From Gammaproteobacteria bacterium (GTDB lineage Bacteria; Pseudomonadota; Gammaproteobacteria; UBA6429; Thiohalophilaceae), in the NCBI GenBank assembly GCA_029881995.1, contig JAOULO010000027.1, positions 1-42,014 on the forward strand: a DNA stretch of 42,014 nt, read 5' to 3'. Shown here one piece after another: positions 25,419 to 38,272 of this stretch; the stretch's first letter is position 1, and each line of letters starts with the position of its first letter. Both the position numbers and the translations under genes were made by a program. The notes under the pieces were generated by a model that saw only the letters and a program-made list of their open reading frames with translations, was not told where the DNA came from and ran no database searches.

Positions 25419-27254
25419 CTAATGTTTAGGTAAAACGCCGACCTGAGGCATATTAGCCAATCCAGATTCCTGCGCATGTTCCTGAAAACCTTTATTTCGC
25501 CAGAAAAAGGCTCCCGGCATGGTGGTGGGAATCACCAGCACATAAAACAGGGCGCGACTAATGATGCTACTGCTTAAAATAGATAAAACGAGCAGGCAGC
25601 CCGCAGCCATACCAACATAACCTGACAGACCTGTGATACTGACCGTTACCAGTGCGATAAGATTTGTTGTGAGCAGACTATTACGCAACAGGCTGCTTGT
25701 ACCGTAAGTGGTGTTCTGTTCATACTGGGATGCAGCTCCCTCTCCTCCCTGGCGGTCCATGTCCCATCCATGGAACAGGTGACCGACAGCCTCCATGGCC
25801 AGTCCGATCAATGCCACAAGCGCCAAAGATTGCAGTTGCACTTGATTGTCTACTAAACCGCTTACTAAACTGGTCATAACTGCGATAAGCATTGCTCCCA
25901 GACTCAGTGTGTTCCCCCAGAACTGTGTAGCCGTTTGCCAGTGGTTCCAGAAGGGACGTGCAGGAATTAGATAGAGTTTGACCATATACCAGGAACCCAG
26001 TACCAGACCGGTTATGGCAACATAGGCTGAGATCACTTTCAGGCTATTAAATAGTTCACCCTTTAACAGGCTAAACAGGCAAAATCCGACAAGACCAGCA
26101 AAGAACAGTGACACCCCGGCTATTTCACGACTGACTGGAGAATAACGCAGGTTATTAAAACCACGATAGAAGCGATGTGGGCGTCCAAGGTGTAGATTGA
26201 GTTTCAACATGCCAAATGTTAACAACACCAACATACTGCCGAGTAGTGGAATGAAGCTGCTTGATGTTTCCAGGCTATTGAAAGGTGTTACACCAATAAC
26301 TCCACCCAGGAACAGTAACAGGAAGGCACCCATTACCGTTTGGCTACTGAGGGTAAAGGCAATATGAGCATTTTCATGGCTGGATAGGAGTTTCTTGAGG
26401 TTCCAGCATTTACCTTTACCGATATCACGTAGTTTAGTTTTAAAACCACCCTGCCCCTGATCGTCACGTTCATAACGCAGTGGAATAGCATCAGGGCGCG
26501 TCATTTCTCTTGGCAGTGTTTTGGTCTGTTGGAAACGGATATTGGGGTGGGTTATTTCCGGAGTTGGAAAACCGGGGATCTGGGTAGCCAATTGTTCACG
26601 GTTTTCTGGCCGGGTTTCGATGACACCAAAATCCAGTGCGCCGGCCAGACAGGCTGAAGCACAGGCCGGTTTCAGGCCGACTTCAAGACGATCAACACAC
26701 ATATTACACTTATGTACATGACCTTTTTCGGTATCCAGTTGCGGCGCGTTATATGGACAGACCCAGGTGCAGTAACCACAACCAAAACAGATGTCCGGGT
26801 CTTGTAACACCGCACCATACTCGGCAAACTTGGTATAGGCGCGGGTCGGACAGCCCTTCAGGCAGACTGGGTTGTCGCAATGGTTACAGGCCATGGAAAT
26901 GTTCAAACGTGTGTAATTGGGATAAGTTCCTCCTTCCACATAACCCACAGCACGATAAGCCAGATAAGGTGGCAGACCATTCTTTTCGCTACAGGCCGAT
27001 TCACAGGCATGACAGGAGATGCAATTATCGGCATTGAAATAAAAGCCGTGTTGCTTATAACGGTTAGGGTGTTCACCTACTGAGGTATCACCATTGATGT
27101 TTAAGCTTTTACCCTTGAGTTTTTCATCTTCGGCCGCAAGGTCGATGACCTTACCGTAGCGATTCTTTTGTGGTGCATCATACTGCGGTAAGCGGGCGTA
27201 TTCAGGTTCATCACTGCGCTCGAAGTATTTTCGTTTTTTAACTTTATCTAACAT
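25419..27254 (-). CDS. DmsB-DmsC-type fusion: ferredoxin domain plus membrane anchor
   Basis: The 611-residue protein joins a DmsB-like electron-transfer part to a DmsC-like part. The first has four Cys clusters (CISCHACESAC near 77, CNHCDNPVCLKGCP near 121, CFGCGYCTWVCP near 154, CNMCVDRL plus CASAC near 181-200). The second has about eight membrane helices (residues 300-600). It should take electrons from the quinol pool and pass them to the neighbouring molybdoenzyme at the inner membrane. It follows nasA in the same operon, so its natural partner is that nitrate reductase rather than a DMSO reductase. AGAAGG lies before the start. Confidence 0.9.
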   Translation of the reverse strand: MLDKVKKRKYFERSDEPEYARLPQYDAPQKNRYGKVIDLAAEDEKLKGKSLNINGDTSVGEHPNRYKQHGFYFNADNCISCHACESACSEKNGLPPYLAYRAVGYVEGGTYPNYTRLNISMACNHCDNPVCLKGCPTRAYTKFAEYGAVLQDPDICFGCGYCTWVCPYNAPQLDTEKGHVHKCNMCVDRLEVGLKPACASACLAGALDFGVIETRPENREQLATQIPGFPTPEITHPNIRFQQTKTLPREMTRPDAIPLRYERDDQGQGGFKTKLRDIGKGKCWNLKKLLSSHENAHIAFTLSSQTVMGAFLLLFLGGVIGVTPFNSLETSSSFIPLLGSMLVLLTFGMLKLNLHLGRPHRFYRGFNNLRYSPVSREIAGVSLFFAGLVGFCLFSLLKGELFNSLKVISAYVAITGLVLGSWYMVKLYLIPARPFWNHWQTATQFWGNTLSLGAMLIAVMTSLVSGLVDNQVQLQSLALVALIGLAMEAVGHLFHGWDMDRQGGEGAASQYEQNTTYGTSSLLRNSLLTTNLIALVTVSITGLSGYVGMAAGCLLVLSILSSSIISRALFYVLVIPTTMPGAFFWRNKGFQEHAQESGLANMPQVGVLPKH

Positions 27255-27367: not shown

Positions 27368-29548
27368 TTAAAAAGCCCTCGCTGCCTTATTACGCACAGC
27401 GGCTGTTCCCTGATCGGTTGCCGGTTCCACTTTCACAGCACACTGTTTAAAGGCAGGCTGACGTGAATGGGGATCTAGCAGACCGAGAGAAATACGATTT
27501 ACACATTCATGAAAATGAAATGGGATAAACACGCTATTGGGTGCGACGCGTTGAGTCAGCTGTACCATCACTACCGCGTCACCACGGCGTGACGTCAGGC
27601 GTGCATAACTGCCATGAGTAATACCCAGTTCTTTGGCCGCATCGGGATTCATTTCCATATACGGTGTTGGGCTGAATTTATTCAGGTTACCCACCTTGCC
27701 GGTCCGGGTGCGGGTATGAAAGTGTTCTACTACTCGACCGGTATTGAGCCAGAAAGGATAATCATCATCAGGTCGTTCGTTGTTATCGATAAAGATCAAG
27801 GGAATCAATTTGGCCTTGCCGTCTTCATGCTGGAATTTACCATCGGTATACAGGCGTGGTGAGCCGGTTTCTGCCCCTTCGGTACAGGGCCACTGGATAC
27901 CACGATGTGACTCGATCTTCTCATAACTCATGCCAGAGTAATCCAGCATACGACCTTTGGAGAGTTGTCTCAGTTCATCAAATACCCCTTCCGTGGTTTC
28001 AGGGAATTTGATTTTCTGGCCCTGCTCGAAACGTTTAGCCATCTCATTAAAGATCCACAGATCCGGTTTTGATTCAGCATAGGGCTTAATCACGTTGCGA
28101 ATCAGGTTGACGCGACGTTCCGTATTGGTAAAACAGCCTTCTTTTTCTGCCCATATGGATGCAGGGAAATAGACATGGCTGTACTCATTGGTTTCCATGT
28201 CTTCATAGGCATCCTGTACCACCAGGAACTCCAGTTTTTCCAGGGTCTTGCGAATACGTGCAGTGTTGGGCATGGAGGTCATGGGATTGGTGGCAACAAT
28301 CCACAGGCCTTTAATTTGCCCGGTTTCGATGGCTGGGAATATATCAGTCTGAAACAAACCGCGTTTCTTTGGGAAGAACTCAGGATCGATACCCCAGAAT
28401 TTGGCGATGTCTTCGCGGTCCTTTTCTTTTTCAAGTACGCGATAACCGGGTAGACCGGAACAGGAAGACCATTCTCTGGTGCCCATGGCATTACACTGGC
28501 CGGTAATCGATAAGGAAGTCCCACCGGGCTTACCTATGTTACCAGTGACAAGATTAAGATTGTTGATATTGACGACACCATCAGAACCATGGGTGCTCTG
28601 GTTAATACCCATGGTCCAGATACTCATCGCGGCACCGGCTTTTGCATAGGTGCGAGCCACATTGCGAATGGTGTCTTCGTCAATGCCACAGATCTTTGCG
28701 GCCATCACCGGGTTGTATTCTTCAACAATCTTTATGAATTCCTCATAGCCTGATGTATGGGCATTAATGTACTCCCTGTCTTCAAGTCCTTCATCCAGAA
28801 TGACATGCATCAGGCTGTTTATCAGTACTACATCAGTCCCCGGTGTGATCGGCAGGTGCATGTCGGCCATCTGGGCTAGCATGGTGACGCGTGGGTCGAC
28901 CACAATTACAGGGAACTTACGCTTTTCGAGTGCCTGCTTCAGGCGCCAGAAGATGATCGGGTGTTGTTCCGGTAGATTGGATCCAAAGGCAATCAGACAG
29001 TCGGTATGTTCAAAATCATCATAACAACCAGGCGGGCCATCGGAGCCAAAGGATCTTTTGTAACCCGATACGGCCGAAGCCATGCATAAGGTGGTATTAC
29101 CATCATAGTTATTGGTGCCGAGTACACCTCGGGCCAGTTTACCCAGGGTATAAAACTCTTCTGTCATGATCTGACCGGTAGAGACAATGGCAAAGGCATC
29201 TCGACCATAGGTTTCCTGAATCCGTTTTATTTCACTCGCGGAATGATCCAGTGCTTTGTCCCAGCTGGTTTCCTTAAAGGGTTCATAAAACCGCTTACGT
29301 ATCAGAGGCACACGACCACGACCGCTGGAACGGAACAATTCATGTTCAAATATCCCTTTCAGACATAGTTTGCCGCGGTTGACATCGGCACTGCCCACTC
29401 CGCGTGAAGTAATGGCCTCACCATTGGCATCTACACCAACTTCAATGGAACAACCCGTTGAGCAGTAACCGCAAGTGGTATATTTCCATTCAACTACCGG
29501 CTTGTCGGCAATCTTGATGGGATTCTTTTTTAGTCTGCCAAATAACAT
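27368..29548 (-). CDS. nasA: Assimilatory nitrate reductase catalytic subunit (Mo-bisMGD)
   Basis: This is a 726-residue molybdopterin oxidoreductase. The N-terminal 4Fe-4S site is CGYCSTGC with the fourth Cys in GKLCLKG; the Mo-ligand Cys lies in LCMASAV; and the Nas/Nap-type guanine dinucleotide contacts are visible (VVDPRVTMLA, GNIGKPGGTSLSITGQCNAMG, NTGRVVEHFHTRTRTGKV). It reduces nitrate to nitrite in the cytoplasm. ATG 29548 is chosen because AGGAA lies just upstream; a longer frame overlaps nirD. Unlike many NasA proteins it has no C-terminal 2Fe-2S domain, so electrons probably come through the DmsBC-like partner. Confidence 0.92.
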   Translation of the reverse strand: MLFGRLKKNPIKIADKPVVEWKYTTCGYCSTGCSIEVGVDANGEAITSRGVGSADVNRGKLCLKGIFEHELFRSSGRGRVPLIRKRFYEPFKETSWDKALDHSASEIKRIQETYGRDAFAIVSTGQIMTEEFYTLGKLARGVLGTNNYDGNTTLCMASAVSGYKRSFGSDGPPGCYDDFEHTDCLIAFGSNLPEQHPIIFWRLKQALEKRKFPVIVVDPRVTMLAQMADMHLPITPGTDVVLINSLMHVILDEGLEDREYINAHTSGYEEFIKIVEEYNPVMAAKICGIDEDTIRNVARTYAKAGAAMSIWTMGINQSTHGSDGVVNINNLNLVTGNIGKPGGTSLSITGQCNAMGTREWSSCSGLPGYRVLEKEKDREDIAKFWGIDPEFFPKKRGLFQTDIFPAIETGQIKGLWIVATNPMTSMPNTARIRKTLEKLEFLVVQDAYEDMETNEYSHVYFPASIWAEKEGCFTNTERRVNLIRNVIKPYAESKPDLWIFNEMAKRFEQGQKIKFPETTEGVFDELRQLSKGRMLDYSGMSYEKIESHRGIQWPCTEGAETGSPRLYTDGKFQHEDGKAKLIPLIFIDNNERPDDDYPFWLNTGRVVEHFHTRTRTGKVGNLNKFSPTPYMEMNPDAAKELGITHGSYARLTSRRGDAVVMVQLTQRVAPNSVFIPFHFHECVNRISLGLLDPHSRQPAFKQCAVKVEPATDQGTAAVRNKAARAF

Positions 29549-29556
29549 ATCTATTC

Positions 29557-29883
29557 CTAAATAGCGATGTAGATGGTTGTACCTTCTATTTTGATTGGGA
29601 AAGAAGCAGTACAACCTTCATCAGGGGCGACAGCTTCACCACTGTCCAGTTGTATGTTCCAGTTGTGCAAAGGACAGGTGACTTTCTTGCCATGCACAAT
29701 ACCCTGCGATAGTGGTCCCTTTTTATGTGGACACTCATCACGCAGGGCAAAGATTTCATCCTCGGCAGTTCTGAAAAGACCGATGTTGCCATCATCCGTT
29801 TTAATCACTCGCGCACCGAGCCTGGGTACATCTTCGACCTGGCCGACTTCGATCCAGTTTGCTTCTTGTTTTACTGCTGACAT
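29557..29883 (-). CDS. nirD: Nitrite reductase small subunit with Rieske domain
   Basis: This 108-residue NirD belongs to the siroheme nitrite reductase NirBD, which turns nitrite into ammonium with NADH. It keeps Rieske-type ligands, C-x-H in CPHKKGP and C-x-x-H in CPLHNW, which several enterobacterial NirD proteins have lost. It lies between nirB and nasA with short gaps, and AGAGGA precedes its start. Confidence 0.92.
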   Translation of the reverse strand: MSAVKQEANWIEVGQVEDVPRLGARVIKTDDGNIGLFRTAEDEIFALRDECPHKKGPLSQGIVHGKKVTCPLHNWNIQLDSGEAVAPDEGCTASFPIKIEGTTIYIAI

Positions 29884-29895
29884 CGTTGTTTCCTC

Positions 29896-32355
29896 TTATG
29901 CGGTAGCGGTTGTCTTGCCAATAGTGATGGTGGCAATGGGCTCGAATTCATGTTTATCGGTACCATTGGCGCGTTCTGCCCATGGGTCATCCTGCATATA
30001 CTTTTGTGACTCACGGAACAGTTCCGCCAGTTCTTTGCGGTACTCTTCATTCTCTACAATCTGTTCTTTCACATAAGTCAAACCAACACGTTCTAACCAG
30101 GGTGCAGTACGTTCAAGGTAGTGGGCTTCCTGACGATAGAGCTGCATAAAGGCTGCGGCATATTCCAGCACTTCATCTTCGGTTTTGACATTACACAGGA
30201 AATCTGTCGCGCGTACTTTGACTCCACCGTTACCACCGACGTGAAGTTCATAACCGGAATCGACACAGACCACACCAAAGTCCTTGATGGTGGCTTCAGC
30301 ACAATTGCGTGGACAACCGGACGCGGCCATCTTGAATTTGTGAGGTGTCCAGGAACCCCAGGTCATTTTTTCCAACTCAACGCCTAAATGGGTTGAGTCC
30401 TGTGTGCCAAAGCGACACCACTCTTTACCGACACAGGTTTTCACGGTACGCAGAGCCTTACCGTAGGCGTGACCGGAGACCATGCCGGCGTCACTGAACT
30501 TCTTCCAGATGGTTGGCAGGTCTTCTTTTTTCAGGCCATACAGACCGATACGCTGACCACCAGTAACGTGTACTGTTTCTACACCGTACTCTTCTGCTAC
30601 ATCGGCAATGGCACGCAACTCTTTCGGTGAGGTACCACCACCCCACATACGAGGAATAACCGAATAAGTACCATCTTTCTGGATGTTAGCGTGAACACGT
30701 TCATTAATGAAACGTGACTGGTAATCATCCAGACCTTCCTTAGGCCAGGCACAGACAACGTAATAGTTGAGTGAAGTACGGCACTTGGCGCAACCATCTG
30801 GTGTTTTCCACTCAAGGCCGGTCATCACATCACGCACGGTCTTGAGTTCTTTATTGGTAATGGCCGCACGAACTTCATCGTGGGTCATTTCAGTACAACC
30901 ACACATGGGTTTCAGGTGAGGTGCTGTGGAATAATCACCACCAACTGTGGTTGCCAGAATGGCTTCAACCAGACCCGTACAGGAACCACAGGAACTGGAG
31001 GCTTTCGTGTGTGCACGAACATCTTCTAATGTATAGAGTTTTTTATCATTAATGGCCTTAACGATGTCGCCCTTGCAGACACCATTACAACCACATATTT
31101 CGGCAGAATCAGACATAGCAGCAATGCGATTTTCTTCACCGTGTCCGGAGTCACCCAGATGGGCCTGACCGAACAGGATATTCTTGCGCATATCCGAGAT
31201 ATCGGTTTCGTCACGTAAAAGATCGAAATACCAGGTTCCATCAATGGTATCGCCGTACATCACAGCGCCCTGGATCTTGTTATCTTTTACAACCAGCTTA
31301 CGGTAGACACCGCTGGCCTTATCCTGAAACACCAGTTCATCGGTTGTTTCATCTCCCACGAAGTCACCCGCAGAGAAAAGATCAATGCCGGTTACCTTTA
31401 ATTTGGTTGAAGTAACCGAGCCTTCGTATCTGCCAATACCATGTTTGGCAAGATGATTGGCACAAACCTTGGCCATTTCAAACAAGGGTGCCACCAGACC
31501 ATAGGTCATACCACGATGCTGAACACATTCACCCACTGCATAGACACGTGGGTCAAAGGTCTGCAAAGTATCAGAAACCACTATGCCTCGTTCACAATGG
31601 ATGCCAGCTTTTTTTGCCAGTTCCATATTGGGGCGAATACCCACGGCCATCACCACCAGATCGGCATATATTTCAGTGCCATCTTTGAAGCGCACTTTTT
31701 CAACACGATCTTTACCAATGATGGCCTCGGTCTGGGCAGCCATGAGGAAATTCAGACCACGCTCTTCTAGAGAAGTACGTAACATATTAGCTGCGGCTTC
31801 ATCCAGCTGGCGTTCCATGAGAGTTTCCATCAAGTGAACGACTGTTACACTCATACCCTGTTGCATAAGACCATTGGCGGCCTCAAGACCCAGCAGTCCC
31901 CCACCGATAACAACGGCATGTTTCTGCGTCTTTGCTACATCCATCATGGTATTGACATCATGCATATCACGGAAGGTGACAACACCTTCCAGGTCATTAC
32001 CGGGAACAGGTATAACAAAGGGATTCGAACCAGTTGCAATCAACAGGCGGTCATATTCTGCCTGAGTTCCATCACTGGCAATTACTTTACGATTAACACG
32101 GTCTATCTCAATAATCTCCTTGCCTTTATAGAGAGACACAGCATTATCGACATACCATTGATCGTTATGAGTTACGATCTCCTCAAATTCTTTTTCACCG
32201 GTTAATACAGGTGACAACATAATGCGGTTGTAATTACCATAGGGCTCTGCACCAAACACGGTTATATCAAACACCAGTGGATCAATCTTGAGTAACTCTT
32301 CAACGGTACGGATACCCGCCATGCCATTACCAATTACGACGAGTTTTTCAGCCAT
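29896..32355 (-). CDS. nirB: NADH-dependent nitrite reductase large subunit
   Basis: The 819-residue subunit has an N-terminal FAD/NADH domain (VIGNGMAGIRTVEELLK; VIGGGLLGLEAANGLMQQG) and two BFD-like Fe-S segments (CGCNGVCKGD ... CGSCTG, and CGCTEMTHDEV ... CAKC). The C-terminal siroheme-4Fe-4S part has cluster cysteines in CVGKEWC (about residue 637) and CPRNC (about 681). It makes ammonium for assimilation in the cytoplasm. GAGGAGA lies before the start. It is the first gene of a leftward operon with a leader that holds a hexaloop hairpin and terminator. Confidence 0.96.
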   Translation of the reverse strand: MAEKLVVIGNGMAGIRTVEELLKIDPLVFDITVFGAEPYGNYNRIMLSPVLTGEKEFEEIVTHNDQWYVDNAVSLYKGKEIIEIDRVNRKVIASDGTQAEYDRLLIATGSNPFVIPVPGNDLEGVVTFRDMHDVNTMMDVAKTQKHAVVIGGGLLGLEAANGLMQQGMSVTVVHLMETLMERQLDEAAANMLRTSLEERGLNFLMAAQTEAIIGKDRVEKVRFKDGTEIYADLVVMAVGIRPNMELAKKAGIHCERGIVVSDTLQTFDPRVYAVGECVQHRGMTYGLVAPLFEMAKVCANHLAKHGIGRYEGSVTSTKLKVTGIDLFSAGDFVGDETTDELVFQDKASGVYRKLVVKDNKIQGAVMYGDTIDGTWYFDLLRDETDISDMRKNILFGQAHLGDSGHGEENRIAAMSDSAEICGCNGVCKGDIVKAINDKKLYTLEDVRAHTKASSSCGSCTGLVEAILATTVGGDYSTAPHLKPMCGCTEMTHDEVRAAITNKELKTVRDVMTGLEWKTPDGCAKCRTSLNYYVVCAWPKEGLDDYQSRFINERVHANIQKDGTYSVIPRMWGGGTSPKELRAIADVAEEYGVETVHVTGGQRIGLYGLKKEDLPTIWKKFSDAGMVSGHAYGKALRTVKTCVGKEWCRFGTQDSTHLGVELEKMTWGSWTPHKFKMAASGCPRNCAEATIKDFGVVCVDSGYELHVGGNGGVKVRATDFLCNVKTEDEVLEYAAAFMQLYRQEAHYLERTAPWLERVGLTYVKEQIVENEEYRKELAELFRESQKYMQDDPWAERANGTDKHEFEPIATITIGKTTATA

Positions 32356-32424
32356 TGTTTTCTCCTCATCAAGCTGGTTAAGCCGATCAACCCTGATTCA
32401 GTTAACCTGTCTTTAAAACACAAT

Positions 32425-32477
32425 AAAAAAACGGCGTCAGTTACAAAGGGGGTAACCCCGTGTAACAGGACGCCGTT
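32425..32477 (-). terminator. Intrinsic terminator in the nirB leader (attenuator)
   Basis: Read leftward, AACGGCGTC (32477-32469) pairs perfectly with GACGCCGTT (32438-32430) and is followed by a run of T (A on this strand, 32431-32425). The inner part adds GTTAC/GTAAC and CCCC/GGGG pairs. It lies about 70 bases before the nirB start codon and after the sigma54 promoter, so it would stop transcription unless an antiterminator acts. Confidence 0.9.
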
Positions 32478-32517
32478 GTCCAGTTCTTTTGTGTTGAACA
32501 GCCGGAATCAATTTACT

Positions 32518-32533
32518 GACCCGCCGTTGGGTC
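32518..32533 (-). promoter_or_regulatory. ANTAR-type hexaloop hairpin in the nirB leader
   Basis: Read leftward, GACCC and GGGTC enclose the six-base loop AACGGC, which has A in position 1 and G in position 4, the rule for RNA hairpins bound by ANTAR regulators such as NasR, NasT and EutV. The same loop is used in the divergent transporter leader. A weak GTTC/GAAC stem (32483-32499) lies between it and the terminator; its loop does not follow the rule. Confidence 0.78.
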
Positions 32534-32584
32534 GTAATCCAAATCTATTCAACGGTCCCAATTCAGGGACAGTTATGCAGATAT

Positions 32585-32600
32585 TGCAGAGAGTGTGCCA
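32585..32600 (-). promoter_or_regulatory. Sigma54 promoter of the nirB operon
   Basis: Read leftward the sequence is TGGCAC-ACTCT-CTGCA, matching TGGCAC-N5-TTGCA at all positions but one, with the invariant GG and GC 10 bases apart. Transcription should start about 12 bases further left, placing the hairpin and terminator inside the leader. Confidence 0.82.
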
Positions 32601-32727
32601 AAATTGAGCAAGTTAATTAACTGATTGATTATTATAGATTATTTACATTTTAGTAATGATGCACTACTGGCTTATATGGCTTTCACGCACTGTTTTATTG
32701 CATTAAATTAAATTAGCGGTTTCTAAT

Positions 32728-32742
32728 GCACTTATGCAGTGC
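32728..32742. promoter_or_regulatory. NtrC-like enhancer site
   Basis: GCAC-N7-GTGC (32728-32731 and 32739-32742), in the context TGCACTTATGCAGTGC, fits the palindromic NtrC core. It lies about 130-145 bases from both sigma54 promoters, a normal distance for a shared upstream activator site. Half sites (GCAC, GTGC) are seen nearby. Confidence 0.6.
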
Positions 32743-32883
32743 GTATGCGTAGATTTGAATGCCTCCCAAATGACTGGTCCAACCGTTAGCATCGATACAG
32801 TGCAAAATTACACATGTGAGTTTCTTATTTATATTAATCACTTAACCGATAATTATATATTTTAAAAACTAAACGTAAACATT

Positions 32884-32899
32884 TGGCATAGCAATTGCT
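32884..32899 (+). promoter_or_regulatory. Sigma54 promoter of the nitrate transporter gene
   Basis: TGGCAT-AGCAA-TTGCT matches the -24/-12 consensus closely, with GG (32885-32886) and GC (32897-32898) correctly spaced. The predicted start is near 32910, giving a leader of about 165 bases. Confidence 0.85.
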
Positions 32900-32928
32900 C
32901 TAGTTTGCTGCATTGAAATTTAAACAAC

Positions 32929-32981
32929 GCAGGCCAACGGCGGTTTGCATGTATTAATGATGGATCACTGATCGATCTATC
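32929..32981 (+). promoter_or_regulatory. Two-hairpin ANTAR-type element in the transporter leader
   Basis: Hairpin one pairs GCAGGCC (32929-32935) with GGTTTGC (32942-32948), including two G-U pairs, around loop AACGGC. Hairpin two pairs GATGGATC (32959-32966) with GATCTATC (32974-32981) around loop ACTGATC. Both loops have A at position 1 and G at position 4, though the second has seven bases. A 10-base linker separates them, and a terminator follows 9 bases later. Confidence 0.82.
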
Positions 32982-32990
32982 TGTTGGGAC

Positions 32991-33036
32991 AAAGGCGTCC
33001 AGGCATGGTTATCAAAACCATTCTGACGCCTTTTTT
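32991..33036 (+). terminator. Intrinsic terminator in the transporter leader (attenuator)
   Basis: AAAGGCGTC (32991-32999) pairs with GACGCCTTT (33025-33033) and an inner ATGGTT/AACCAT stem (33005-33010, 33016-33021), followed by six T (33031-33036). It lies 37 bases before the GTG start, so read-through needs antitermination. Confidence 0.92.
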
Positions 33037-33073
33037 GTTGCGTGAAAATTAGATACATCGAGGTATAGTCAAA

Positions 33074-34549
33074 GTGACTGAACAAGCAAACAAATTAAAT
33101 TTATTATCATTTACTGGAAGAATAAGAATTTTGCATATGACATGGTTTGCATTTTTCCTGAGTTTCTTCGTCTGGTTTAACCATGCACCATTGATGGGAG
33201 TAATACGGGAAACCTTTGATCTAACAAATCAACAGGTCAAGGCTCTTCTGATTATAAATGTGGCGTTGACCATTCCGGCACGAATTATTGTCGGTATGCT
33301 AGTGGATCATTTTGGCCCTCGTCGTATGTATAGCTTGCTATTATTCACAGGCAGCTTTATTTGCTTCGGATTTGCCATAGCTGATTCCTACGAACAACTA
33401 GCATTAATGCGATTTCTACTGGGTTTTGTCGGTGCTGGATTTGTTATTGGTATTCGCATGGTCAGTGAATGGTTCCCTGCCAAGCAGGTGGGTGTTGCCG
33501 AAGGTATTTATGGTGGCTGGGGAAATTTTGGCTCAGCTGCCGCAGCCATGAGTTTACCAACAATTGCTTTACTCTATGGTGGTGATGATGGATGGCGGTA
33601 CGCCATTGGTACAACAGGTGTGTTGGCATTGATTTATTCAGTTATATATTTTTTCTCTGTAACGGATACGCCAAAAGGATCTACTTATTTCAAGCCCAAA
33701 AAGACGGGTGCCATGGAAGTGACAAGTAAAGGGGATTTTTTCCTGTATATCATTATGAATATCCCCATGTATGCTGCGCTTGCCGTATTAACGTGGAAAC
33801 TGGGGCCAGAAAACCTAAAAATGCTAAGCCCTGGTATAACAACAACTATATATGCGGTTCTTATTGGAATTTTTATATTTCAGACCATCCGGATTTACCA
33901 GGTTAACAAACACGTATTTATCGAAGAGGTGCCAGAAATTGATCGTTACAATTTCAAGCAGGTTGCCGTTCTGGATCTTGCCTATTTTGTTACATTTGGA
34001 TCAGAACTGGCGGTGGTATCCATGTTGCCACTTTTCTTCATGGATACATTTGAATTATCTGCCATAACGGCTGGCCTGTTAGCCTCCGGGTTTGCCTTTA
34101 TGAATCTGGTGGCCCGTCCTAGTGGTGGTTTGTTCAGTGACAAATTTGGACGTAAGAAAACCATGTTAATCCTCATTGCTGGATTAGTTGCCGGCTACCT
34201 GATAATGAGTAATATTACATCAGCTTGGCCTATTTGGCTGGCAGTTGTTGCTTCCATGGCCTGCTCTTTCTTTGTTCAGTCCGGAGAAGGTGCTGTGTTT
34301 GCTATTGTACCTCTAGTTAAAAGACGGTTGACTGGGCAGGTTGCTGGAATGGCAGGTGCTTATGGTAATGTCGGTGCTGTAACTTTCCTGACTGTTCTAT
34401 CGTTTGTTTCTCCGCAGATATTTTTCCTTGTAATAGCTGCTGCGGCCTCAATCACATTTGTTGCCGTTGCCCTGTTCCTGGATGAGCCAAAAGGTCATAT
34501 GGCCGAAGTAATGCCGGATGGTACTGTGCAAATGATTGAAGTTGGCTAA
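33074..34549 (+). CDS. Nitrate transporter, NNP family (NarK/NrtP type)
   Basis: This is a 491-residue major facilitator with about 12 membrane helices. The family's nitrate signatures are visible: [13 protein letters not shown] in the first half and [12 protein letters not shown] in the second, and the loop 2-3 motif DHFGPRR is repeated as DKFGRKK. It imports nitrate (or exchanges it for nitrite) across the inner membrane for the adjacent NasA/NirBD pathway. GTG is the start, with GAGG about 10 bases upstream. It is the first gene behind a sigma54 promoter and attenuator. Confidence 0.92.
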
Positions 34550-34616: not shown

Positions 34617-36323
34617 ATGGCTTCTCTTGAGATTTCATCAGCCCAATATAGTATTGCAGGCATCAAATCAGAAAATGAAGATGCCTGTGGGATTCATGTG
34701 CCTGATGAACCCTTATTGACAACCAAAGGGATTGCGGTTGCCATTGCCGATGGTGTCAGCAGCAGTGATGCCGGTAAGCGGGCCAGTGAGGCCTGTGTCA
34801 AAGGATTTCTGTCCGATTATTTCAGTTCGCCAGAAAGCTGGACCGTAAAAACTTCTGCGCAAAAAGTGTTATCCGCCTTAAATCGCTGGTTGCATGCCCA
34901 GGGTCAACGTGAGTTTGGCCATGCACAGGGAATGATCACCACATTTAGCGCAGTTGTCATCAAATCTAATACAGCTCATATATTCCATGTGGGTGATACG
35001 CGAATATATCGTTTACGTGATAATGAGCTGGAGCAATTAACCCATGATCACCGCATTGTACTGGATAAGGATAAATCTTATCTTAGTCGCGCCATGGGTA
35101 TCGATCTGAGACTGGACATAGATGTTCGAACTGTCACTGTTGAGACAGGAGACATCTTTTTACTGGTGTGCGATGGTGTTTATGAATTTCTGGCGGATGG
35201 GCTATTAAGAAAGCATATCAAGGACAATGATAAAGATCTGGATAAGGCATGTAAATCCATTGTTGACCATGCAGTCACTAATAAAAGCAATGATAATCTT
35301 ACCTGTCAATTAGTCAGAGTTGATCGTCTTCCATCCGAAAATGAAAAAGAGTTTTACAATAAACTGATCGAATTACCGTTCCCTCCCCCTCTTGAGCCTG
35401 GGATGATACTTGATGGTTATAAAATTCTACGTCAGTTGTTTTCTAATAAACGTACCGAGGTCTATCTGGCAAAAGATACGGCAGATGAATCTACTGTCAT
35501 CATGAAAGCCCCTTCTCTCAATTACGATGATGATGCTGAGTATATAAATCGGTTCTTACATGAAGAATGGGCAGGGAAACGGATTAAAAACTCTAATGTT
35601 GTTCAGATTATTGAATCCAGACAAAAACGTACGGCTTTGTATTACATCACTGAATATGTAGAAGGTCAGACCCTACGTCAATGGATGAAGGATCATCCGC
35701 TACCGTCAATTATTTCAGTCAGAAATTATGCGGAACAGATTGCGCATGGTCTTCGTGCTTTTCATCGCCTGGAAATGATTCACCAGGATTTGAAGCCCGA
35801 GAATATTTTGCTTGATAAACATGATAGTTTGAAAATTATTGACTTCGGTTCAACCAAGATTGCCGGAATTGAAGAAATTAGTACACCACTAATGCAAAAT
35901 AATTTGCTCGGCACCATCAATTATACTGCCCCAGAGTATCACATTGGAGATCCAGGCAGTCATCGCTCAGATATATTTTCTCTGGGGGTGATTGTTTACG
36001 AAATGTTGACAGGAGAATTGCCTTTTACTAAAGAGCTCAGCGCTCGCAACCTGGGGAGAGCCACGTACCGATCAGTTAAGTTCTTCAGGCCGGATATCCC
36101 TGTCTGGGTCGACAAGACGATTGAAAAGGCTGTCAATATCAATCCAGAAATGCGGTTTGACAAATTATCTGAATTTACTTATGCCCTTTCGCATCCAGAC
36201 TCAACATTAATCAATCAGGATTATGTGCCACTGATTAAAAGGAATCCTGTCAAATTCTGGAAATCCTTAAGCATTATTTTGTTGATTATAAATCTTGTTT
36301 TTATTTATATGCTTGTAAAGTAA
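34617..36323 (+). CDS. PP2C phosphatase-Ser/Thr protein kinase fusion
   Basis: The 568-residue protein has an N-terminal PP2C phosphatase (about 5-235; metal motifs SENEDACG, AIADGVSSSDAG, HVGDTRIYRL, CDGVYEFL, SNDNLTC). A Ser/Thr kinase follows (about 265-530; Lys297, catalytic D391 in HQDLKPEN, DFGS, APEY), then a C-terminal membrane helix (about 548-566). The Gly loop is degenerate (LFSNKRTEVYLA) and HRD is HQD, but Lys, Asp and Mg residues remain. Such fusions sit beside nitrate assimilation genes in Pseudomonas and other gammaproteobacteria, where they probably tune uptake or reduction. No strong ribosome site is visible. Confidence 0.9.
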   Translation: MASLEISSAQYSIAGIKSENEDACGIHVPDEPLLTTKGIAVAIADGVSSSDAGKRASEACVKGFLSDYFSSPESWTVKTSAQKVLSALNRWLHAQGQREFGHAQGMITTFSAVVIKSNTAHIFHVGDTRIYRLRDNELEQLTHDHRIVLDKDKSYLSRAMGIDLRLDIDVRTVTVETGDIFLLVCDGVYEFLADGLLRKHIKDNDKDLDKACKSIVDHAVTNKSNDNLTCQLVRVDRLPSENEKEFYNKLIELPFPPPLEPGMILDGYKILRQLFSNKRTEVYLAKDTADESTVIMKAPSLNYDDDAEYINRFLHEEWAGKRIKNSNVVQIIESRQKRTALYYITEYVEGQTLRQWMKDHPLPSIISVRNYAEQIAHGLRAFHRLEMIHQDLKPENILLDKHDSLKIIDFGSTKIAGIEEISTPLMQNNLLGTINYTAPEYHIGDPGSHRSDIFSLGVIVYEMLTGELPFTKELSARNLGRATYRSVKFFRPDIPVWVDKTIEKAVNINPEMRFDKLSEFTYALSHPDSTLINQDYVPLIKRNPVKFWKSLSIILLIINLVFIYMLVK

Positions 36324-37813: not shown

Positions 37814-38272
37814 ATGACTCAAGCAGCTGTAATAAGACCTCACAATATTGATCAACTCATAAGTCAGATAAGACAGGAATTTCCACTATCAGGGATTCGT
37901 ATTACTGGCCGTGGCAGAACATTCCAACGTCAGGCTGAATTAATGGTGCAACGTATTCGTGCAAATCGTCAGGAATTTCTCAGCACCTATGTACGCCGCC
38001 CTCACATACAGGAAATGGATCGCTGGTTTCTTGCTAACCGTACTGCAACATCGGCTCAGATGGTTGAGGAGTTTGAACAGATCATTCGCCGAGCTGTAAG
38101 CGGTGGTGCTGCCGTATCCAATCACTTATCCAATACTGCTAGAGATATCAGTTGGCCGGTCGGCGCACCTGATGTTTTAAACAATATCGAAAACCGGATA
38201 AGTGAACTGGGCGCCTCAGTTATTCGGGAGCCCAATGCCGCAGGTGGTCGTCATTGGCATATAGACTGGTAA
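37814..38272 (+). CDS. M15-like (DD-peptidase/Hedgehog fold) zinc peptidase, no signal peptide
   Basis: The 152-residue protein has M15-like signatures: GRGRTFQRQAELM near residue 32, SNHLSNTARD (H104 and D111 as likely zinc ligands) and a C-terminal HWHIDW (H149 as third ligand), with E139 as possible general base. M15 enzymes cut peptidoglycan stem peptides. Standard M15 proteins carry an export signal; this one has none, so it is either exported by a specialised route or acts after lysis. AAGGAAAGG precedes the ATG. A secreted protein gene follows 17 bases later. Confidence 0.72.
   Translation: MTQAAVIRPHNIDQLISQIRQEFPLSGIRITGRGRTFQRQAELMVQRIRANRQEFLSTYVRRPHIQEMDRWFLANRTATSAQMVEEFEQIIRRAVSGGAAVSNHLSNTARDISWPVGAPDVLNNIENRISELGASVIREPNAAGGRHWHIDW

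Follow-up and report, generated by a model that had tools for sequence, protein, structure and literature searches.

The stretch of DNA analysed here (42,014 nucleotides; hereinafter the window) raises the question of what role an antiterminator of nitrate assimilation would have once its nitrate sensor is gone. The question centers on an intergenic region (32356-33073) bounded by nirB on the minus strand and a gene for a NarK-type transporter on the plus strand, with the same order of elements on both sides: a sigma54 site followed by a hairpin (P1), a second hairpin (P2) and a terminator. The original prediction, whose every position reads in the sequence as claimed, saw in this region two sigma54 promoters, a shared NtrC-like site and two ANTAR-type attenuators, which together would sense both ammonium and nitrate or nitrite.

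The minus-strand operon begins with nirB, coding for the large subunit of assimilatory nitrite reductase (29896-32355; TIGR02374, 943 bits, over the cut-off), and continues with nirD (29557-29883, minus; TIGR02378, over the cut-off) and a molybdopterin oxidoreductase gene (27368-29614, minus; PF00384/PF01568). In NCBIfam, the product of the latter matches formate dehydrogenase alpha with 614 bits and NasC with 550 bits, each under its own cut-off; it is probably the assimilatory nitrate reductase (NasA/NasC-like), a name given from its position after nirBD. Adjoining it on the same strand is a gene for a fused 4Fe-4S and DmsC-like membrane protein (25419-27254, minus; PF13247 + PF04976). This fusion is also present in two of the relatives (designated by G numbers), G002 and G004, and suggests a membrane (quinol) electron donor to the assimilatory enzyme. 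On the plus strand, the gene for the NarK-type MFS nitrate/nitrite transporter (33074-34549; TIGR00886, 339 bits, over the cut-off) adjoins one for a fusion of a PP2C phosphatase and a Ser/Thr kinase (34617-36323, plus; PF13672 + PF00069), which is found next to narK in G010 and G041 too, and upstream of nirB in G060.

The two claimed sigma54 promoters are the top-ranking -24/-12 sites over both strands of the window. The site of the nirB-nirD-nitrate reductase operon (TGGCACACTCTCTGCA, 32600-32585, minus) ranks first with 21.0 out of 22.5, and that of the narK-type transporter (TGGCATAGCAATTGCT, 32884-32899, plus) second with 20.5 out of 22.5. Both match the GG-N10-GC core with the -24/-12 consensus, and a shuffled window should hold 0.55 sites scoring 20.5 or higher (20 Markov sequences); the consensus and its weights were hand-set, and hence the ranks are more telling than the scores. 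The nirB-side site has counterparts in G004, G010, G002 and G017, and the narK-side site in G004 and G010. At sigma54 promoters, transcription typically starts about 12 bases past the GC of the -12 box. Starts would accordingly fall near 32574 (minus) and 32910 (plus), which places both P1 hairpins within the RNA. Sigma70-like sites number 4 against 2.5 expected; a terminator scan run with the sigma70-like search misses both leader terminators, its sole site being the P2 of the nirB leader on the opposite strand.

Between the two promoters lies an NtrC-like site, TGCACTTATGCAGTGCG (32727-32743), with one mismatch to TGCAC-N7-GTGCA, together with a weaker second one, CGCACTGTTTTATTGCA (32686-32702), which has two mismatches and is 41 bp from the main site. 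The predicted GCAC-N7-GTGC site is thus present, but its count lends it no significance of its own: the window holds 20 NtrC-like sites with up to two mismatches where 20.1 are expected, including a second one-mismatch site at 37947. This chance-level motif is what favors reading the whole region as a coincidence of ordinary promoters and terminators devoid of an ANTAR switch. However, the site carries more weight than its count suggests because it is conserved in relatives, with counterparts of no mismatches in G004 and G002 and one mismatch in G010. The spacing of the pair is also similar, being 41 bp in this genome, 41 in G004 and 42 in G002, while G010 has a poor partner (three mismatches) at 41 bp. 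G004 and G010 keep sigma54 sites on both sides along with the central NtrC-like site. The means for the proposed sigma54/NtrC control are present, as the genome codes for one RpoN (442 bits) and for a single protein that scores above the NtrC cut-off (763 bits).

The identical AACGGC loop claimed for both strands is borne out in P1, both in the nirB leader (GACCC-AACGGC-GGGTC, 32518-32533, minus; an A1/G4 hexaloop) and in the narK leader (GCAGGCC-AACGGC-GGTTTGC, 32929-32948, plus). Both terminators are likewise found where they were placed: AACGGCGTC...GACGCCGTT with a T run in the nirB leader (32425-32477, minus; -28.3 kcal/mol) and AAAGGCGTC...GACGCCTTT with a T run in the narK leader (32991-33036, plus; -21.0 kcal/mol). 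While the one hairpin per side of the original prediction corresponds to P1, it had missed P2, namely GGAC-AACGGC-GTCC in the nirB leader (32468-32481, minus) and GGAC-AAAGGC-GTCC in the narK leader (32987-33000, plus). On both sides P2 shares sequence with the 5′ terminator arm, making the antiterminator and the terminator mutually exclusive. With P2 being weak (-4.0 kcal/mol in each leader) and the terminators strong, the latter should win in the absence of a protein. The motif described for ANTAR target RNAs comprises two A1/G4 hexaloops, the second of which is exclusive with a terminator (PMC3369931). Both leaders of the window have the two hexaloops as well as the P2-exclusive terminator, and hence are attenuators of the ANTAR type, as had been proposed.

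A scan of the whole window for A1/G4 double hexaloops recovered one pair per strand, each of the two with an overlapping terminator, whereas 100 dinucleotide Markov sequences averaged 0.04 pairs, with no more than 1 in any of them, and gave none with a terminator. Along with the recurrence of this layout at the corresponding location in G004 and G010, and the location of all three leader matches of the genome before nitrate genes (see below), this makes it extremely improbable that ordinary promoters and terminators have come together here by coincidence.

The wider distribution of such leaders was traced with a covariance model (R1) built from 22 leaders, which had been picked by a scan demanding pairing along with A or G at loop position 1 and G at position 4. 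The model matches the nirB leader at 32422-32543 (76 bits) and the narK leader at 32921-33041 (66.4 bits), both of which are also among its seeds, and finds three matches in the genome (E 0.01 or better), before nirB, narK and nrtA. Among relatives, at least 24 of 76 genomes (E 0.01) and, class-wide, at least 66 of 369 (E 0.001), this genome being included in both counts, have a match; these are lower bounds because stricter filters were applied and only part of each genome's candidates was scored (up to 47 for the 76 genomes and 9 class-wide). Of the 24 leader-bearing genomes, 21 match NasT at 1e-14 or better, as compared to 2 (G025 and G049) of the 52 with no leader match; three more of the latter, G014, G022 and G033, have weaker NasT matches (1e-12 to 1e-13). 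While 16 of the 24 supplied sequences to the model, NasT is also found in 6 of the other 8. The three leader-bearing genomes with no NasT match are G004 (87% complete), G011 (70% complete) and G071, whose leader match is weak.

Leaders on opposite strands less than 1 kb apart were found in this genome and in two of the relatives, G004 and G010; the divergent twin arrangement thus recurs in two further genomes. In the class sample such pairs were found only in this genome, with G004 and G010 giving no matching row there; in G082 and G222, about 2.5 kb separates the leaders on opposite strands. The nirB leader and its promoter are also present in G002 and G017, whose fetched stretches gave no NarK match. 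In two Thalassospira loci (L181 and L200), the leader matches lie opposite to the nasT strand, about 2.1 kb upstream of nasT.

When the loops of 53 distinct model hits are compared, position 1 of P1 is A in 50/52 and position 4 is G in 52/52, and the same letters occur in P2 in 52/53 and 53/53, respectively, counts that are partly by construction as only leaders with A or G at position 1 and G at 4 had been taken as seeds. In the 22 leaders, P1 and P2 together show 93.2% standard pairs and a covariation of 0.490 versus 0.204 in shuffles, and P1 with the terminator 93.2% and 0.439 versus 0.212, all of these values being biased upwards by selection. A fairer test of P2 used 53 distinct hits of a model lacking the P2 pairs (57 hits at 49 loci with 4 repeats; one row is a partial opposite-strand hit). 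In these, 96.6% are paired versus 93.6% in shuffles, and the covariation is 0.169 versus 0.126, with 1 of 500 shuffles as high; two of the five measures, double-sided changes and further pair types, were no better than shuffles (153/500 and 156/500). Covariation in these sequences thus offers modest support for the pairing, modest because P2 hardly varies. The overlap of P2 with the terminator is itself kept in the relatives. The leaders fall into two spacing classes with respect to the distance between the P1 and P2 loops, about 46-57 (e.g., L004, L006 and L007) and about 20-24 (e.g., L010, L012 and L013); several of the former have an extra hairpin between P1 and P2 that is absent in the latter.

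In none of the 20 leader-bearing loci tried did any Rfam family reach its gathering score, and Rfam annotation would therefore miss the NasT regulon. The best Rfam match of both window leaders is 'Pseudomonas sRNA P11' (RF00625), at 28.3 and 25.6 bits. This match would favor viewing the leaders mainly as small RNAs, with terminated 5′ fragments of the NalA/P11 kind as the product and the operons using other promoters. Against this, both scores are far under the P11 gathering score of 70, the terminators precede the first gene of each operon, P2 continues to overlap the terminator in relatives, and NalA itself has been described as the leader of the nirBD operon (PMC12830290); accordingly, we deem it very unlikely. 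The Rfam narK RNA (RF03032) matches on the plus strand only, at 18.5 bits (E 0.95), and does not reach its gathering score of 43.2; a literature search for it gave nothing. The P11 consensus has sigma54-like boxes, an A1/G4 hexaloop and GGAC-AAAGGC-GUCC; in that of the narK RNA, a stretch resembling a sigma54 promoter precedes CGAC-AAAGAC-GUCG, which is similar to an ANTAR P2. From these consensus sequences, both families appear to represent a sigma54 promoter with an ANTAR leader, and P11 is probably the NalA kind of leader.

The combination of a sigma54/NtrC promoter with NasT antitermination before nirBD is indeed already established for NalA of Pseudomonas (PMC8092218, PMC12830290, PMC3973561). 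The nirB leader studied here is comparable in having a predicted sigma54/NtrC promoter and a NasT-type leader, but differs in that the transporter has a divergent leader of its own, nrtABC has a third and no NasS was found. The intergenic twin attenuator is real and recurs in two relatives, while its kind is known from Pseudomonas NalA and the nasA leader of Paracoccus.

An ANTAR gene whose product could act on these leaders is present, and the absence of any such gene, which would have refuted the original prediction, is thus not what the genome shows. The only ANTAR match in the genome is a 193-aa receiver and ANTAR protein of the NasT type on another contig, C116, in keeping with the statement that the window has no nasST or nasR gene. 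Of the NasT/NasR-type regulator that had been postulated, the NasT part therefore stands, whereas NasR is rejected as no NIT-ANTAR protein was found in the genome. The only NIT-domain protein found there (L247, C122:84078-84794) reads like a chemoreceptor rather than a NIT-ANTAR fusion, and might possibly function in nitrate taxis.

Downstream of nasT on C116 are nrtA and the genes for a permease and an ATPase, the latter a protein of 287 aa with an ABC domain only. The third attenuator lies between nasT and nrtA, with the P1 loop AAAGCT, the P2 GGGC-GAAGGC-GTCC and a terminator of -28.9 kcal/mol; the P2 loop starts with G where the others have A, the sole case among the 53 distinct model hits. 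A GAAGAA loop was rejected as the P1 of this leader, as AAAGCT upstream of it is the better candidate, which leaves the GAAGAA hairpin as a spacer. The nasT gene is preceded by a sigma54 site scoring 20.5, so that all three units of the genome have such sites, and the R1 search found no leader match before it. In 8 of the 12 genomes tested, this one included, a site scoring at least 20 precedes nasT; in the other 4 (G034, G041, G051 and G067) no good site was found at the nasT promoter. The order of nasT and nrtA with a leader between them is seen in this genome (G000) and in G002, G010 and G041, and in G010 nasT-nrtABC and the narK/nirB pair are on one contig, about 10 kb apart.

From this anatomy we infer the binding, the read-through and the order of events. 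Under nitrogen shortage, phosphorylated NtrC together with sigma54 would transcribe the nirB, narK and nasT-nrtABC units. In the stretch before nirB, narK or nrtA, the leader entered by the polymerase would fold into the strong terminator and stop it, unless NasT binds the P1 and P2 hexaloop hairpins of that leader; with P2 held by NasT, the terminator would lose its 5′ arm and the polymerase would pass. As nasT is preceded by a sigma54 site but by no attenuator, NtrC would make NasT first, and NasT would then open the three gates before nirB, narK and nrtA, in a coherent feed-forward AND. The AND logic that finds support in the sequence is one of NtrC acting both directly and via NasT. With the nitrate step excluded, we consider this promoter-NasT-attenuator mechanism quite probable.

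The nitrate step is the weak part of the original prediction. It had the ANTAR arm sense nitrate or nitrite, but in the NasT systems that have been studied this is done by NasS, an NrtA-like and predicted cytoplasmic protein described as holding NasT until nitrate or nitrite binds (PMC3795266). In this genome NasS was not found; the single PF13379 protein is the NrtA encoded beside nasT, and its N-terminus, read by eye, resembles a signal peptide. The assembly is a draft (97.3% complete, 132 contigs, 4.2% contamination), and a nasS elsewhere in the genome is hence a minor possibility. A NasS query taken from G001, of the same genus, recovers NasS there as well as in G017 (70% identity) and G034 (57%), while in this genome (G000), G002, G010, G015, G041, G049 and G073 it finds at strength only NrtA (50-52%). 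It finds nothing in G004, and the locus of G038 ends at a contig end. Further weak PF13379 matches in G002 and G010 do not rise above E 6e-4 with the NasS query. A binding protein of G067 that had been taken for NasS was reassigned to NrtA and has a Tat-like signal (by eye).

What the loss of NasS might entail can be gauged from Paracoccus denitrificans, in whose nasTS-nasABGHC system an NtrC site controls nasT (PMC5424462) and a hairpin leader before nasA is bound by NasT (PMC5424462, PMC3795266). The nasS mutant described there makes the nas transcript on all nitrogen sources but ammonium, on which it is similar to the wild type, and on glutamate it has NasG and nitrate reductase activity with or without nitrate, whereas the wild type needs nitrate (PMC5424462). 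Thus, while NasS gates NasT by nitrate in Paracoccus, the system studied here, with no NasS found, resembles its nasS mutant. The independence of that mutant from nitrate leads us to expect ammonium control and blindness to nitrate here. On these grounds we infer a loss of nitrate control, with a regulon that would answer to ammonium or nitrogen status and the level of NasT; we regard this as evenly poised between right and wrong.

The gene order is nasT-leader-nasS-leader-nrtABC in G001 and G017, and nasT-leader-nrtABC in this genome (G000), G002 and G010. G002 and G010 are the genomes with the NasT closest to that of this genome, and in a NasT tree (quick method) G000, G002 and G010 form a clade (SH-aLRT 99) beside G001 and G017 (87 for the five). 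The receiver phosphoacceptor position is Ser in the NasT of G000, G002 and G010, and Asp in that of G001 and G017. Across 79 loci, the receiver Asp is present in 60 of the 64 with NasS nearby as compared to 8 of the 15 without (Fisher p 0.0005), with NasS having been sought within each fetched stretch only and separated from NrtA according to which of the two reference sets (4 and 6 sequences, respectively) gave the higher blast score. Another 13 of the original 92 loci had been set aside as ambiguous (2), truncated (8) or having an NrtC fusion only (3). Independent pairs on a quick tree (4 starred pairs, p 1) were not supportive of a general link between the losses of NasS and the receiver Asp. 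Accordingly, we propose a joint loss for the single clade of G000, G010 and G002 only. The possibility that nasS was lost by recombination between the leaders flanking it was also considered and found weak; the leader region of G002 is 71% identical over 91 bp to the nasS-nrtA leader of G001 and 85% over 20 to the nasT-nasS leader.

Alternatively, NasT might still be controlled by nitrate or nitrite via a sensor other than NasS, such as the NrtA-type protein encoded beside nasT or a direct ligand of the receiver domain, retaining a gate that demands low ammonium and the presence of nitrate. This would fit the retention of hairpins and terminators in all three leaders (despite the changed A1 in the P2 of the nrtA leader), the juxtaposition of nasT, leader and nrtA in the four genomes listed above, and the binding of c-di-GMP to NasT in Pseudomonas putida, an input independent of NasS mentioned in a review (PMC12830290). 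The proteins at hand are less accommodating: the sole PF13379 protein is an NrtA with its signal-peptide-like N-terminus (by eye), the ATPase with its 287 aa has an ABC domain only, and the chemoreceptor-like L247 is the one NIT-domain protein found. We would give this alternative slightly less than an even chance. The terminators retained at the three leaders argue mildly for some control of NasT, as they would be odd if it were always on. That NasT has another input of some kind is accordingly a serious possibility on the sequence evidence, though we lean a little against it. More specifically, NasT freed from NasS might read a new input via its Ser-bearing receiver, resetting the three-attenuator regulon, the candidates being the precursor of NrtA, a ligand bound directly (nitrate, for instance) and a second messenger; we view this as rather unlikely.

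If the regulon is blind to nitrate, some bacteria would control nitrate use by ammonium alone, with the attenuators serving as a feed-forward filter; if it is not, a further nitrate input to NasT exists. Among the open-licence titles and starts of abstracts listed, we found no description of a NasS-less NasT, a NasT feed-forward or divergent ANTAR leaders with a nitrate transporter.

The EutV regulon of Enterococcus faecalis includes the EutW kinase and is not known to have a sigma54 promoter. It is comparable to the regulon proposed here in having one ANTAR protein for several attenuators, but responds to ethanolamine instead of nitrate (PMC3369931). The nasF leader of Klebsiella oxytoca similarly combines a dual-hairpin ANTAR leader with a terminator (PMC3369931), but is served by NasR, a NIT-ANTAR fusion of a kind not found in this genome.

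Two further observations concern the usual place and form of NasS. In G015 (L097), the gap between nasT and nrtA has at the usual place of nasS a frame of 152 aa that is globin-like (by eye), flanked by a weak and a strong leader match. In L167 and L175 (both Candidatus Thiodiazotropha) and L172 (Chromatiales), a NasS-like stretch is in one frame with an ABC-ATPase signature, and such frames might possibly code for a cytoplasmic nitrate sensor fused to the transporter.
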